A DNA stretch of 64,000 bases from an uncultured Erythrobacter sp. (GTDB lineage: Bacteria > Pseudomonadota > Alphaproteobacteria > Sphingomonadales > Sphingomonadaceae). Position 1 is the stretch's first letter, and each line of letters starts with the position of its first letter. Of the stretch, positions 13,847-22,588 are shown piece after piece. Under the pieces are notes generated by a model that did not search any database, was not told the origin of the DNA, and was given only the letters and a program-made list of their open reading frames with translations. The position numbers were made by a program, and so were the translations under genes. The DNA lies in the NCBI GenBank assembly GCA_947502305.1, contig CANMZA010000001.1, forward strand, positions 1,426,001 through 1,490,000, written 5' to 3'.

Positions 13847-14404
13847 TTATTGGGTCAGGATTTCCTGTTCTTTCTTCGCCGATGCCTCGTCCGCGCCTGC
13901 GACATGTTTGTCGGTCAACTTTTGAACTTCATCTTCCATCCGCTTGCGCTCGTCCTCGGAGATTTCTTTCTTCTTCTCGTCGGCTTTCAAGCTTTCCATC
14001 GCATCGCGGCGGACATTGCGGATCGCAACTTTGGCCTTTTCGGCATATTGCCCGGCCAGCTTTGCCAGATCCTTACGCCGTTCCTCTGTCAAATCCGGCA
14101 TTGGCAGGCGCAAGGTCTGACCATCAGTCATCGGGTTCAGACCTAGGTTCGCATGGGCAATGCCCTTCTCGACGGCGGTGATATTCGCCTTATCCCAAAC
14201 CTGCACGCTGAGCATCCGCGGCTCTGGCGCGGAGACCGTCGCGACCTGGCTCAGCGGCATCATCGCGCCATACACTTCGCACATCACCGGATCGAGCAAT
14301 GCAACATTCGCGCGCCCGGTGCGCAAACCGCCAAGATCGCTTTTCAGCGATTCAACAGCGCCGTTCATGCGGCGTTCGATATCAGCCTTGTCGTACTGAG
14401 CCAT
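13847..14404 (-). CDS. frr: Ribosome recycling factor
   Basis: A 185-residue protein with the standard RRF pattern: an N-terminal helix with MNGAVESLKSDLGGLRTGRA, the middle domain with VSAPEPRMLSVQVWDK, and the C-terminal helix with RRDAMESLKADEKKKEISED. RRF and EF-G split post-termination ribosomes in the cytoplasm. The stop of pyrH is three bases upstream, so the pair is co-translated. Length is normal and no key region is missing. Confidence 0.97.
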   Translation of the reverse strand: MAQYDKADIERRMNGAVESLKSDLGGLRTGRANVALLDPVMCEVYGAMMPLSQVATVSAPEPRMLSVQVWDKANITAVEKGIAHANLGLNPMTDGQTLRLPMPDLTEERRKDLAKLAGQYAEKAKVAIRNVRRDAMESLKADEKKKEISEDERKRMEDEVQKLTDKHVAGADEASAKKEQEILTQ

Positions 14405-17001: not shown

Positions 17002-17209
17002 TTGAGCAAGTTATAAGAACCCAGGTCAAGGGCGCAAGAGAATGGCCGATGTGCTCCAACGAACCCAACTTCATCCGTGCCTTTACTGTGCCGGGGGCGT
17101 CAGAAATCTAAACACCGCAAATGCATCTCCCGTTCGGCGCTTACCGGGACCCGGTGTGCGCAGGCAAAAATCGCGCTCATCGCGGAACGCCTTTCAGGAG
17201 AGACACCAT

Positions 17210-18226
17210 ATGAAAACCCCCGCTACGAAAACTATGACGTTCGCCGCAGGCTCGGCAATCACTCTTGCCGCTACCGCATTCTTGGCCGCGCCGGCACTTG
17301 CTCAGGATATTACCGTCGAACAAATTGGCACCGATCATTCGGTCACGATCAACCAGGTCGAAGACGCGCTCAATTCCATCACGGTCACGCAGGCCGCAAA
17401 CGGCCAGATCGCTTTGGTCAGGCAAACCGGCAGCGCCGCCTCAAACACAGCCTTTGTCGCGCAAGCCGATATTGGCGGAGCAGGCGAAAACGAGGCCTCT
17501 ATCATTCAGCGCGGTTCGGATAATATTGCTGCTGCCGGACAAAACAGCGCCACAAACTTCGCCGCTTTGACACAAGATGGGGACGCCAACTTTGCCTCGG
17601 TTGACCAAGGCTTTGGCGGGGGCGACGGCACCGGCGCCGATGCGAACAATGCGCGCATCCTGCAATTCGGCAATAATGGCGAGGTTTCCGTCGAACAGAA
17701 TTTCAGCGCCGCAGGCGGCGGGAACGATGCCGATGTGCTGCAATTTGGTGATGGCAACACGGCAACTATCACGCAGGAAGACATTCTCAATGTGGTCTTC
17801 ATCGTGCAAAGCGATGTTGCTGGCACCGGCGGACACACCGCGACAGTCTCGCAAACCGGCGCGGGCAATTTGGCCGCAATCGGTCAAAACTCCGCGCTAA
17901 ACGAAGCTGTCGTCAATCAAAGCGGCGCAGACAATGCGGCCTTCATCGATCAAGGTTTCAACGATGGCGTAGGCACCGGCAGCGACGGCAATTATGCAGA
18001 AGGCAATCAAACTGGAAGCGGCAATGAATTGACGATCAACCAGAACCTACTTGATGCAGGCGGCGGCAACAGCGCGACAATCACTCAAACCGGCGACAAC
18101 AACACCGGCACGATCAATCAAGCGGGTGACAACCACACCGCAACGCTCACGCAAACAGGCGACAATTTTACCTATCAGATCGATCAGGTCGGCAGCGGAA
18201 TGGTCGCGAATATCGTCCAGAATTGA
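17210..18226 (+). CDS. Curlin-repeat (CsgA/CsgB-like) secreted protein
   Basis: A 338-residue protein with a signal peptide ending at APALAQ (residue 32), preceded by AGGAG at 17196-17200. The mature part is a chain of Asn/Gln/Gly-rich repeats of the curlin type, for example TATVSQTGAGNLAAIGQN and ATITQTGDNNTGTINQ, in which Gln and Asn recur at fixed spacing. Such repeats form beta-solenoid amyloid in curli. Residues about 79-190 and 194-305 are copies of each other at a constant offset of 115. No csgE, csgF or csgG is nearby, so the export route is not visible here. A perfect hairpin terminator follows. Confidence 0.82.
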   Translation: MKTPATKTMTFAAGSAITLAATAFLAAPALAQDITVEQIGTDHSVTINQVEDALNSITVTQAANGQIALVRQTGSAASNTAFVAQADIGGAGENEASIIQRGSDNIAAAGQNSATNFAALTQDGDANFASVDQGFGGGDGTGADANNARILQFGNNGEVSVEQNFSAAGGGNDADVLQFGDGNTATITQEDILNVVFIVQSDVAGTGGHTATVSQTGAGNLAAIGQNSALNEAVVNQSGADNAAFIDQGFNDGVGTGSDGNYAEGNQTGSGNELTINQNLLDAGGGNSATITQTGDNNTGTINQAGDNHTATLTQTGDNFTYQIDQVGSGMVANIVQN

Positions 18227-18351: not shown

Positions 18352-19278
18352 TTACCCGCCAACAGCGGCCGCAACCTCTGCTGCGAAATCGCTCTCTTCT
18401 TTCTCGATGCCTTCACCGAGTTGGAAGCGGACGTAATCGGTCAGCGTGATCGTGCCGCCAGCTTCTTTGCCAGTCCGGGCAACCACGTCTTCAACCGAAG
18501 ATTTGTTGTCCATCACGAACATCTGGCTGAGCAGAGCATTCTCTTTTGCAAATTTCTTGATCGCGCCTTCGACCATTTTTTCCTGCACGTTCTCAGGCTT
18601 GCCGCTTTCGGAGGCCTTTTCCTGTGCAATGGCGCGCTCACGCTCAATCACGTCGGCGTCGAGGCCGTCTGCATTGAGAGCTTGCGGGAACATGGATGCG
18701 ATATGCATCGCCAACTGCTTGCCGAACGGCACCAGCACATCGTCGCCAAGGCCGCTTTCCAGAGCAACCAAAACGCCGATCTTACCCAGGCCTTCTGACG
18801 CTGCGTTGTGGACGTAGGAAACCACAGCGCCGCTGCCGACTGATACAGTCTTCATCCGGCGGATCTGTTGGTTTTCGCCAATCGTCGCAACATTGTCTGT
18901 CAGCTTGTCAGCAACCGTGCCGCCAGTGGGATAGTCCGCCGCTTTCAAAGCGTCGACATCATCAGAACCAAGGGCGAGAGCCGCTGCGGTCGTGTGACGG
19001 ACAAAGTCCTGAAACTGATCGTTCTTTGCAACAAAATCGGTTTCAGAGTTTACTTCAACAGCAACGCCCTTGGTGCCTGCTACGGCAACGCCGACCAGAC
19101 CTTCTGCAGCCGTGCGGCTCGATTTTTTCTGTGCGGTCGCAAGGCCTTTGGCGCGCAAAGCGTCAACGGCTGCTTCAATATCGCCGCCTGCTTCGGTCAG
19201 CGCTTTTTTTGCATCCATCATGCCTGCGCCAGTTTTTTCGCGCAGAGTCTTCACATCGGCGACGGTGAAATCAGCCAT
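18352..19278 (-). CDS. tsf: Elongation factor Ts
   Basis: A 308-residue guanine-nucleotide exchange factor for EF-Tu. The N-terminal UBA-like domain begins with [21 protein letters not shown], and the exchange domain contains [14 protein letters not shown], the signature that inserts into EF-Tu. A strong AAGGAAAA precedes the ATG. It is the second gene of the rpsB-tsf operon, with a hairpin in the spacer and a terminator after the stop. The length is normal for the class. Confidence 0.97.
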
Positions 19279-19305
19279 GAGATTTTCCTTTTCGTGTATT
19301 CATAG

Positions 19306-19332
19306 GCGCCCGGCCACTTGATGACCGGGCGC
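19306..19332 (-). other. Hairpin in the rpsB-tsf spacer
   Basis: GCGCCCGG (19306-19313) and CCGGGCGC (19325-19332) are perfect inverted repeats with an 11-base loop. No T-tract follows on the minus strand, so it may act as an attenuator, processing site or stability element between rpsB and tsf. Confidence 0.6.
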
Positions 19333-19382
19333 GCTAAAGAGGATTTGTGACGCGCGTTTGACGCGCGCCGTTAAAGTGGTGC

Positions 19383-20150
19383 TTACGCCGCCGGAGCCGC
19401 TTCTGCAGCCGCCTCAGCAGGAGGAGCATCCATCGCGCCGATATCAGCGCCGGAATCTTGAACAGCGCCGCCTTTACCAGCCATCGCCGCATCACCGATC
19501 GCGCCGCAATACAGGCGAACCGCACGGGCCGCATCGTCATTGCCCGGTACAGGGAATGCGATGTTTGATGGATCAACATTGGTGTCGAGAACCGCGATCA
19601 CTGGGATGCCGAGAACGGCCGCCTCTTTAATCGCGAGGTCTTCTTTGTTCGCGTCGATCACGAACATAACGTCAGGAATGCCGCCCATGTCGCGGATACC
19701 GCCAAGCGACAGTTCCAGCTTGTCACGCTCACGCGTGAGCTGCAGGACTTCTTTCTTGGTGAAGCCGCTAGTGTCGCCCGAAAGCTGCTCTTCAAGGGTC
19801 TTGAGACGCTTGATCGAACCGCTGATGGTTTTCCAGTTGGTGAGCATCCCGCCGAGCCAGCGGTGGTTGACGAAGTGCTGACCGCAAGCGCGAGCGGCTT
19901 CGGCAATAGGCTCTTGCGCCTGACGCTTGGTCCCGACAAACAAAACTTTGCCGCCAGCACGAACAGTCGATTCAACGAAATCGAGAGCGCGCGCGAAAAG
20001 CGGCACAGTTTGCGACAGGTCAATAATGTGAACACCGTTGCGATTGCCGAAGATATACGGCTTCATCCGCGGATTCCAGCGGTGGGTCTGGTGGCCGAAA
20101 TGTGCGCCGGCCTCAATCAATTGCTGCATGGTAACGGTGGGAGCCGCCAT
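19383..20150 (-). CDS. rpsB: 30S ribosomal protein S2
   Basis: With the ATG at 20150 the protein has 255 residues. It matches S2 throughout: [49 protein letters not shown] and [13 protein letters not shown]. The chosen start is preceded by AAGGAAA; the frame runs on to 20249 but the extra residues are not S2-like. The C-terminus carries an Ala/Glu/Pro-rich tail of about 30 residues beyond the core. It is co-transcribed with tsf and is preceded by a leader of at least 100 bases with no clear known regulatory motif. Confidence 0.97.
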
Positions 20151-20368
20151 GGGTATTTCCTTTCCGGTTGTTCCTCTGGAAAGCTTGGAACTGACCGCGG
20201 CCCAAACAAGGGTGGTCCGCGTGCAGCACCGGTATGAAGCGCCTTCCATGTGAATTTCGCAAATGCATCCTGAATCGATTCGTTTCAGAATTACATCTGC
20301 GAGGCCGCGCCATTACCCGCCCTTCCCCACAAAATCTAGTGTAAAGCGCATGCCATTGACGGCGTCCG

Positions 20369-20383
20369 GAACACAAACGGAAC
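20369..20383 (+). promoter_or_regulatory. LexA (SOS) box 1, GAAC-N7-GAAC
   Basis: GAAC at 20369-20372 and GAAC at 20380-20383 are spaced by exactly seven bases. This is the direct-repeat operator (GTTC-N7-GTTC on the other strand) known for LexA of Alphaproteobacteria. It is the farthest of three upstream of the small membrane-protein gene. Confidence 0.75.
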
Positions 20384-20402
20384 AAAAGCACTTGACTGGG
20401 GA

Positions 20403-20417
20403 GAACACTTATAGAAC
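20403..20417 (+). promoter_or_regulatory. LexA (SOS) box 2, GAAC-N7-GAAC
   Basis: GAAC at 20403-20406 and 20414-20417 with a seven-base spacer containing TTATA. A TTGACT lies just upstream (20392-20397), so this box probably overlaps the promoter, although no -10 at standard spacing is obvious. Confidence 0.78.
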
Positions 20418-20427
20418 AAGGGTGAAA

Positions 20428-20442
20428 GAACAAACATTGAAC
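20428..20442 (+). promoter_or_regulatory. LexA (SOS) box 3, GAAC-N7-GAAC
   Basis: GAAC at 20428-20431 and 20439-20442 with a seven-base spacer. It ends 25 bases before the ATG of the small membrane protein, so LexA bound here could block transcription start or early elongation. Confidence 0.78.
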
Positions 20443-20467
20443 ACCGATTTTTGAGAAAGCTCTTTCC

Positions 20468-20725
20468 ATGCTCGCACTGACCTTGATCTGCCTGTTTTCT
20501 GTCGCAGTTGTCGCCACTGGGTTGAGCCTGCTGGATAGCTGGCTTCGCGGATCTAGCGCCTACCGCGTGCTGAAGCGGGAACGGGCTTTGATCGATGCGG
20601 GATTTGTTCCCCAGGTTCACGCGCATGAACTGCGGCTGCGCAAATCGCCGCGGCGCACTGTGGCATCGGCCTCGCGCCCGGCTGCTCGCCGCGCTTTGCT
20701 TCCAACATTTGAAACGGCTGCTTAA
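20468..20725 (+). CDS. Small single-span membrane protein under predicted SOS control
   Basis: An 85-residue protein with an N-terminal transmembrane helix (about residues 2-22, LALTLICLFSVAVVATGLSL) and a strongly basic tail with several Arg/Lys clusters and low-complexity Ala/Pro near the end. No enzyme motif is visible. Three LexA-type boxes precede it within 100 bases, which is unusually many for one promoter. In Caulobacter the small membrane proteins SidA and DidA are damage-induced inhibitors of cell division; this protein could have a similar role, but there is no sequence proof of homology. It ends overlapping pssA by four bases on the opposite strand. The start has only a weak GAGAAAG before it. 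Confidence 0.72.
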   Translation: MLALTLICLFSVAVVATGLSLLDSWLRGSSAYRVLKRERALIDAGFVPQVHAHELRLRKSPRRTVASASRPAARRALLPTFETAA

Positions 20726-21603
20726 TCCGCAGACTGAGCCGCCATTGCACTTTGCTCAGCATCACTGTCACGCGCGCGGCGACGTTTGATCTTGCCATAT
20801 TTGAACAGAGCATAGGGCATGAGGGCGAGATAGACCGCGCTGATCGCGGTAAGTGACCACCACGGTTCGAGCAGCATTGCGGCAAAGCCGAGCGCGGCAA
20901 ACGCCAATAAAGGCAAACGAACATCGCGGCGCGGACGGATTGCCCCCCAGCTGAGCGTGGCCATATTCGAAATGAGCAGAACTGCGATAATGCTGATCCA
21001 GATTGAGAGCACGATCGGATCCCTAAAAATCGGCATCCCCGTTTCAATCCACAAATAGCACGGCGTAAACGCCAGCCCCGCCCCAACTGGCGCAGGCACT
21101 CCGGTTAGAAACCCTGCTGATTGATGCGGCTGATCCTCCACATCAATACGCGCATTAAACCGTGCAAGCCGCAAAGCGCAGCAAATCGCAAAACCCAAAG
21201 CCGCAAACCAGCCAAAGCGCGGCAAATCCTGCAACGCCCACATATAAAGGATCAACGCCGGCGCCATGCCGAATGATAGCGAGTCAGCGAGACTGTCCAG
21301 CTCCGCGCCGAAACGCGATTGCGCGTTAAGCAAGCGCGCGATCCGTCCATCGATACCGTCTAGCACCCCAGCCAAAGCAACCGCCAAGACCGCGTAAGCC
21401 CATTGCTCTTCAATCGCGAAACGCACACCGGTAAGCCCAGCGCACAAAGCCGCGGCCGTGATCGCATTGGGCATCATTGCCCTTAGCGTCAGGCCTCTGC
21501 CGTCACCCGGTCCTCCTGCATCTTCGCCTTCATCAGCTTTCGGCCCAACGCGCGCGGGCGCAGCGGTTTTTGCAGGAGCGTTGGAATCGGAATTGTTGCT
21601 CAC
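20722..21603 (-). CDS. pssA: CDP-diacylglycerol--serine O-phosphatidyltransferase
   Basis: A 293-residue membrane enzyme that makes phosphatidylserine from CDP-diacylglycerol and serine. The CDP-alcohol phosphotransferase motif D-G-x2-A-R-x8-G-x3-D-x3-D is complete, with Asp85, Gly86, Ala89, Arg90, Gly99, Asp103 and Asp107. The remaining sequence is hydrophobic. An N-terminal extension of about 40 acidic and Ala/Pro-rich residues precedes the core, and a shorter start at the Met pair near residue 43 cannot be excluded. It follows psd by 67 bases, forming the two-step phosphatidylethanolamine pathway. Confidence 0.94.
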   Translation of the reverse strand: MSNNSDSNAPAKTAAPARVGPKADEGEDAGGPGDGRGLTLRAMMPNAITAAALCAGLTGVRFAIEEQWAYAVLAVALAGVLDGIDGRIARLLNAQSRFGAELDSLADSLSFGMAPALILYMWALQDLPRFGWFAALGFAICCALRLARFNARIDVEDQPHQSAGFLTGVPAPVGAGLAFTPCYLWIETGMPIFRDPIVLSIWISIIAVLLISNMATLSWGAIRPRRDVRLPLLAFAALGFAAMLLEPWWSLTAISAVYLALMPYALFKYGKIKRRRARDSDAEQSAMAAQSAD

Positions 21604-21670
21604 AAGCGCGCGCCCGCAATCCGCCCCGGAATATCCCGTTCAGATTTCAACCGCGCGGAAATCAAAGCAA

Positions 21671-22420
21671 TTATTGCGCGATCCCTTCGAGCAAGTTCGC
21701 CGCGCCCAAATCAGCGAGAATCGTTTCGCCAGCGACAATTTTCTGCCCCATCAAAACCTTCGGCTCTGTCCCAGCAGGCAGATAGACATCCACCCGGCTG
21801 CCAAACCGAATCAGGCCGATACGCTGCCCCTTGGCGACCAAATCTCCGGGTTTCACAAAGGGAACAATCCGGCGCGCGACCAGCCCCGCAATCTGCGTAA
21901 AGCCGATTTGCAGCCCATCCGTCCGTTCGATCATGACATGCTGCCGCTCATTCTCCTCGCTTGCTTTATCGAGGTCGGCATTCACGAATTTGCCCGGCAC
22001 ATAGACCACGCGGCGCACCGTGCCAGCGATTGGCGCTCTGTTGATGTGCACATCGAACACACTCATAAAAATAGAGATCCGCGTGACCGGGCCGTCGGGC
22101 AAACCGGTATGGCCCGATCCATCTTCGACGCGCAATTCCGCAGGCGGCTCCACTGTTTTGATCAATGTCACCAGACCGTCTGCAGGCGCAACGATGGCGT
22201 TATCCGCTTGCGGTACAACCCGTTCGGGATCGCGGAAAAAGGCAAAGACGCCCGCTGATAAAAACAGCAGCGGCCAGCCTATAATGTTCCAGCCGAAAAA
22301 CAGCGGAATGAGCGCAATGACCACCGCGATGACGCCGTATTTGCGCCCTTCGGGATGGATTGCGGGCCAGCCCCAGCTTGCTTCGCCGCGACCTTGATTA
22401 TCGAGAATTTCACCTGCCAT
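21671..22420 (-). CDS. psd: Phosphatidylserine decarboxylase (pyruvoyl enzyme)
   Basis: A 249-residue short-type decarboxylase when started at the ATG 22420; a TTG 12 codons upstream is less likely. The self-cleavage site is Gly207-Ser208 in [11 protein letters not shown], which generates the pyruvoyl prosthetic group. The N-terminal part has two hydrophobic spans (around residues 25-65), and [13 protein letters not shown] is a family hallmark. It converts phosphatidylserine to phosphatidylethanolamine. It is transcribed just ahead of pssA. Confidence 0.94.
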
Positions 22421-22588
22421 AAACGCGCATCTAGTGATTGCGGCGCGCCCAAGCAAGCGGCCCCTTCGATGTCAGTGCGGCTTGATCTGCGCCAAGCCGC
22501 CATCCGCATTCACACTTTAGTGATATATTTACCCTAATTCTAGCGCCCTGACACCCGGATCGAACACCCAAGACAGGCCACACAAAAC

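Follow-up and report, generated by a model that had tools for sequence, protein, structure and literature searches.

In an uncultured Erythrobacter sp., a small gene next to rpsB carries three LexA-type (SOS) boxes in its promoter and encodes a predicted single-span membrane protein. LexA control of this gene is strongly supported by the sequence, and we hold it to be nearly certain. For the protein itself we propose a role in a DNA-damage checkpoint that would delay division and be reset by proteolysis, a reading to which we give about an even chance. The features of the locus are listed below in coordinates of the window, i.e., the whole stretch of 64,000 nucleotides that was analysed.

19383–20150, − strand: rpsB, encoding ribosomal protein S2 and transcribed divergently from the adjacent small gene (context)
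20369–20383, + strand: SOS (LexA) box 1, GAACACAAACGGAAC; exact GAACN7GAAC, upstream of the −35 element
20392–20396, + strand: likely −35 element TTGAC, six bases 5′ of box 2
20403–20417, + strand: SOS box 2, GAACACTTATAGAAC; just 3′ of the −35 element, the most widely kept position
20428–20442, + strand: SOS box 3, GAACAAACATTGAAC; 3′ of box 2 and ahead of the start codon
20453–20459, + strand: GAGAAAG, likely ribosome-binding site as judged from the sequence, eight bases 5′ of the ATG
20468–20725, + strand: small gene, an ATG frame of 85 codons encoding a protein of 85 residues
20717–20722, + strand: C-terminal Ala-Ala codons of the small gene, likely an ssrA-like degron
20722–21603, − strand: pssA-type CDP-alcohol phosphatidyltransferase, transcribed convergently with the adjacent small gene (context)

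The first-pass annotation had reported three GAAC-N7-GAAC boxes ending 25 bases before an 85-residue frame. Both statements hold: the three matches are exact and lie on the + strand, and 25 bases separate the last of them from the ATG. At the other end of the frame, the stop codon of pssA overlaps that of the small gene. Upstream of the boxes, CACAAAATCTAGTG (window 20325–20345) is nearly unchanged in the genus relatives L002, L004–L007 and L011, and could belong to the promoter of the divergent rpsB gene. Elsewhere in the window, a frame of 394 residues (17042–18226, + strand) contains curlin-associated repeats (PF07012, 8e-33) and is likely an amyloid fibre subunit.

The boxes were compared with LexA-type sites of the same genome. 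About 150 bp before recA lies GAACAAGAGCGGAAC, and about 130 bp before lexA lies GAACGGATGCAGAAC, each followed by AA. The small-gene boxes resemble both, as well as several repair-gene sites, in line with their earlier reading as LexA operators. The gene-preceding sites of the genome have in common the type GAAC(A/G)-N6-GAACA, into which all three boxes of the small gene fit. The recA and lexA boxes are on the strand opposite their gene, while those of the small gene are on the gene's own strand; own-strand boxes also precede an ImuA-like frame (an NCBIfam match below the family cut-off) and ribonucleotide reductase. Among the genes preceded by a box are recA, lexA, the ImuA-like frame, an ECF sigma factor, two radical SAM proteins and ribonucleotide reductase alpha. 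In two further cases, a UvrD-type helicase (L042) and a frame that we read as RmuC-like (L061), the box falls within the longest frame, just 5′ of an internal ATG. The motif described for alphaproteobacterial LexA is GTTCN7GTTC (available text of PMC12700426). By sequence, the small-gene operators belong with the alphaproteobacterial LexA regulon, being exact boxes that match the recA and lexA sites.

Some of these other sites may be noted for their own sake. The ribonucleotide reductase alpha gene (L075, 3–1515) begins 64 bp after an exact LexA-type box, which suggests SOS control of nucleotide supply. The ECF sigma factor gene (L062, 1501–2217) begins 93 bp after an exact box. The two radical SAM genes (L046, 398–1515, and L052, 247–1515) are directly behind LexA-type boxes; one product is of the PA0069 family, and the other is named as a putative DNA modification/repair protein.

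Relatives of the small gene were gathered without any use of the boxes. A protein search of 61 genomes gave 29 matches, one of which (L029) was spurious, having neither synteny nor a frame. The remaining 28 all came from the genus of the window (28 of 37 genus genomes, the window's own included), and all 28 loci were flanked by rpsB and pssA. The 24 genomes from other families gave no match. Nine genus members were without a true match; an rpsB match was obtained in seven of them, each of which carries the gene there by position, and no rpsB was found in the remaining two. A profile search of the family matched 55 of 199 genomes, in 28 of 96 genera. From these matches we dropped the repeats L087, L088 and L090, as well as L138, L140, L141 and L144, which were without rpsB and pssA. 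L107 was left out of the count set as it was off-centre in its locus, though it carries the gene with an exact box and the two neighbours. After these drops, 50 further family genes showed rpsB in 50/50 loci and pssA in 47/50; L114, L121 and L130 have the gene and boxes by rpsB and no pssA match. A second profile, run on 147 order genomes among which the share of other families is uncertain, gave 34 matches, all in this family. Four of these 34 genomes (G103, G118, G136 and G146) gave no locus and were left out, and L196 was dropped as a repeat of L089. Of 16 new loci, 14 had rpsB and pssA, with an exact box in 14/14 and an Ala-Ala end in 13/14, and the small gene was absent from L221 and L223.

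A position-based look covered 49 rpsB loci, 27 from 29 genus or family genomes and 22 from 24 order genomes. Nineteen adjoin pssA, and all 19 have a small frame with a hydrophobic N-terminus, preceded by exact boxes in 17 cases and by boxes with a single mismatch in L150 and L156. Among the 30 rpsB loci without pssA, L167 has the gene and boxes, and the other 29 have neither; no box was present in the 700 bp upstream at any of these 29 (three of which have under 700 bp). When 20 family genomes outside the genus were looked at by position (20 of the 144 without a profile match), the gene was found in 13 and was absent beside rpsB in five, and two loci ran into a contig end. The small gene is thus not universal in the family. 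The final count set consisted of 98 genes from 98 genomes, 78 obtained by protein similarity and 20 by position beside rpsB, with start codons set by rule or by eye. Both rpsB and pssA are present at 94 of the 98 loci, and a hand tally puts the genera that retain the gene, all of one family, at 38 or more. Qipengyuania, Erythrobacter and Porphyrobacter are the named relatives among the database matches listed.

As far as sequence goes, conservation across these relatives is in our view the decisive evidence for the boxes. The first-pass annotation had suggested a search for homologues with conserved upstream repeats, and an exact box was found at most 250 bp upstream of 96 of the 98 genes, in many genera, compared with 0.2 expected at the box density of the window genome. 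The two exceptions carry one-mismatch boxes. A spacer of 7 gave the 96 genes, whereas other spacers from 3 to 12 gave at most 18. A box on the opposite strand occurred in 1/98, and the 250 bases from the ATG onward contained a box in either orientation in 0/98. The sequence TTGAC lies 4–9 bases 5′ of a box in 94/98 genes, on the strand of the small gene, the distance being exactly six in 80. In 83 promoters aligned on TTGAC-N6-box, C precedes TTGAC in 80; no −10 element was clearly assignable in the aligned promoters.

The number of boxes varies. The annotation had spoken of unusually tight control by three operators, which is borne out among close relatives, since 9 of the first 28 genes (those of the genus) have three boxes (15 have two and four have one), but not in the set of 98, where one box is usual (63 genes, against 23 with two, ten with three and two with no exact box). 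The 50 further family genes have mostly one box, about 110–130 bases before the ATG. Within the genus, the two proximal boxes are 24–25 bases apart, and the distal one, where present, is at 33–34.

These counts bear upon two readings in which the small gene would have no SOS role. In one, chance boxes happen to precede a spurious frame. A single box is indeed common: the genome has 58 exact GAACN7GAAC sites, fewer than the 133 of the reversed-pattern control, and at least 28 of the 58 are probably chance matches (by a rough rule, 37 of the 55 sites outside the small-gene promoter fall inside frames and are likely due to chance). The window count of four exact boxes is likewise unremarkable, the shuffle mean being 1.9 with four or more in 13/100 shuffles; the fourth window box (14363–14377, − strand) is inside a long frame (L059) and is likely due to chance. 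A single GAACN7GAAC is a weak signal, unlike a cluster: at the box density of the genome, some 8e-6 triples spanning 74 bp would be expected in the whole of it, and the small-gene promoter is the only triple of exact boxes among the 58 sites. With the 96/98 observed against 0.2 expected, and dN/dS below 1 in 15/15 pairs, chance was rejected, and we leave it almost no probability. In the other, the boxes would mainly regulate rpsB-tsf and so tie the synthesis of ribosomes to DNA damage, with the small frame as an incidental feature. The boxes do lie about 220–290 bp upstream of the rpsB ATG in the window. However, the boxes follow the small gene and not rpsB, because 29 of the 30 pssA-less loci have neither gene nor box and L167 has both; at L115 the gene and its box are about 1.2 kb from rpsB, the TTGAC has the orientation of the small gene, and purifying selection acts on the frame. 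Since the 29 gene-less rpsB loci have no box, this reading was also rejected as very improbable.

The annotation had taken the 85-residue frame as coding, and this was upheld: dN/dS was 0.07–0.54 in the 15 pairs computed and below 1 in every one, with synonymous sites saturated in several. The frame is truly coding and under purifying selection. The protein diverges fast, with identity down to 17%, but the members, 70–99 residues in length (median 86, 98 genes), have a common plan consisting of a hydrophobic N-terminal helix, a basic continuation, a disordered tail and a C-terminal Ala-Ala. In the alignment of 54 diverse members, near-invariance is limited to a single Pro column and the two C-terminal Ala columns.

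The window protein has a hydrophobic helix at about residues 1–22, a helical continuation with basic residues up to residue 43, and a disordered Arg-rich tail. AlphaFold2 (66 sequences) modelled one helix from 2 to 43, followed by disorder, with a mean pLDDT of 76.5, block means of 94–98 over residues 1–40, and a pTM of 0.44. The hydrophobic 19-residue maximum was at least 1.86 in 98/98. The 20 position-found genes had been chosen by an N-terminal hydrophobicity rule near rpsB; therefore, their membrane helix is not independent evidence, while their boxes and tails are. The N-flank charge is 0 or −1 and the net charge of the tail is at least +1 (median +7) in the 98 genes; the 15 residues just past the hydrophobic stretch are net positive in 82/98, neutral in 14 and negative in two. 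With few charges before the stretch and a positive tail, the positive-inside rule predicts that the N-terminus is out and the tail cytoplasmic. An anchor in the inner membrane is thus predicted for the protein, and the one N-terminal transmembrane helix with a basic tail that the annotation had described is supported as a prediction.

An Ala-Ala end is present in 86/98 proteins, the window protein included. For comparison, it was found in 28/523 other frames of the fetched loci and in 0/55 window frames; these controls, in which frames were called by a GC3 rule, are rough, because RpsB ends in Ala-Ala yet escaped the frame rule of the window. ClpXP recognizes a C-terminal Ala-Ala, and the tmRNA tag of the same genome, ANDNEALAIAA, ends in AIAA, like the Ala-Ala end of the small protein. 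The end is likely an ssrA-like destruction tag. It is not strictly required, since it is absent in 12/98, among them the fairly close genus relatives L002, L003, L004, L008, L011 and L089.

Searches for known families returned nothing credible. Pfam gave no match for the window protein and no credible match for 28 members, and none that was credible came from NCBIfam (28 members), PHROGs (54 members) or PADLOC (window protein). No credible relative was found among PDB chains searched by sequence, and megablast against a plasmid collection gave no match. Weak single-member matches (at best PHROG 0.012, azurin 0.029, SLATT_1 0.069, DUF2516 0.065, CcmD 0.078) were taken as noise such as a hydrophobic helix produces. 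Where the database gave a name, it was ‘hypothetical protein’ (24 rows; best 120 of 182 in a second search). Among the titles and abstract openings listed in the literature searches, none describes the gene, and the SOS rows available from a Sphingopyxis granuli study (PMC6472365) name no such gene. We conclude that the small gene is undescribed and that its products form a new family, although the kind of protein is known; the predicted inward-facing tail is a variant feature.

The kind is that of the small membrane inhibitors of division, which we compared by their descriptions in the parts of the cited reports available. SidA of Caulobacter crescentus is a LexA-controlled division inhibitor of 29 residues that interacts with FtsW (PMC4211646), and lexA-null Caulobacter cells are reported to filament no longer once sidA is deleted (PMC12700426). 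Like it, the present protein is alphaproteobacterial, small and of the inner membrane by prediction, with a LexA motif of the same type; unlike it, the protein has 85 residues, usually ends in Ala-Ala and has a basic tail that is predicted to be cytoplasmic. DidA, also of Caulobacter, is similar in size (71 residues) and has one membrane helix, but binds FtsN and is SOS-independent, being driven by DriD (PMC4211646), whereas LexA-type boxes precede the small gene. SosA of Staphylococcus aureus (77 residues, C-terminus outside, CtpA implicated in turnover, identity among species 25–60%; PMC6851548) is alike in size, in its one N-terminal helix, in its fixed chromosomal place and in having a C-terminal turnover signal. 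YneA of Bacillus subtilis is SOS-induced, with a single membrane helix that binds FtsW and an extracellular LysM domain, and FtsW has been proposed as a common target (PMC13396833). The single helix and SOS-type control are shared with YneA; there is no LysM domain in the small protein. The C-terminal parts of SosA and YneA are outside and are described as needed for inhibition, whereas the C-terminus of the small protein is predicted to be cytoplasmic, usually ending like an ssrA tag.

SOS control, a single span, a predicted turnover signal and a fixed locus make up the profile of several division inhibitors known outside the gammaproteobacteria, namely SidA, SosA and YneA; therefore, a division checkpoint is proposed. 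The protein is small and, by prediction, single-helix, as in that type. No match to SulA (PF03846) was found in the small protein or, at E ≤ 1, in the genome, and the latter was counted in favour of a checkpoint role. Four box-led ATG frames of 20–150 residues with a hydrophobic stretch were listed for the genome, the small gene being one. The other three look to us like chance: one is an antisense frame of 24 residues, one is polytopic with its box in the preceding frame, and one is inside a longer frame.

In the proposed mechanism, LexA on the box beside the −35 element would block transcription of the small gene. RecA filaments would trigger LexA cleavage, and the protein would then be made and inserted with its N-terminus outward, leaving the basic helix and the tail on the cytoplasmic side. 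The membrane helix and the membrane-proximal helix might bind a late division protein, our best guess being FtsW or its partners; the sequence itself gives no hint of FtsW, FtsN or FtsZ. After repair, LexA would shut the promoter again, and the Ala-Ala end would expose the protein to removal by ClpXP or a similar protease, allowing division to resume.

The main rival is an SOS membrane inhibitor of the TisB/DinQ type, which would lower membrane potential or ATP and bring on dormancy with the divisome untouched. DinQ of Escherichia coli is a peptide of 27 residues controlled by an antisense RNA, and its promoter is overlain by two LexA operators (PMC3567139, available text); TisB of the same species is described as LexA-controlled and as depolarizing the inner membrane. 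Both are thus membrane peptides under LexA that act on membrane potential, and a single helix is shared with DinQ; fast sequence change under a kept physical plan would also fit a protein acting on the bilayer. However, 85 residues with a long basic tail differ from the 27 of DinQ, and the Ala-Ala end suggests timed removal. Rfam has no family at 19000–22500, where an undescribed RNA would escape detection. To our knowledge, a kept locus (here in at least 38 genera) and purifying selection (15 pairs) across many genera would be unusual for type I toxins. We regard this rival as unlikely. Similarly low is the probability we assign to another envelope-acting SOS effector, one that, on damage, would adjust phospholipid or peptidoglycan synthesis, or else a membrane protease. 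It could draw on the presence of both rpsB and pssA at 94/98 loci and on the overlap of the 3′ ends of the small gene and pssA; but the two genes are convergent and not co-transcribed, L167, L114, L121 and L130 keep the gene and boxes by rpsB without a pssA match, and kept gene order needs no functional link.

Returning to the division checkpoint, we tentatively suggest, with somewhat less than even confidence, that it would be the family's own SOS checkpoint, in which one inside-facing protein would halt the divisome from its place in the membrane and, through an ssrA-like tag of its own at the end of the inward tail, time its removal by ClpXP. Orthology among the proteins would then rest on locus and promoter and not on sequence, and the design would be unlike that of SosA and YneA. 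Outside the gammaproteobacteria, the way in which division is arrested after DNA damage has been worked out in few species, and the inhibitors described share little sequence similarity. Here, locus, promoter and tail jointly single out one candidate gene in at least 38 genera.
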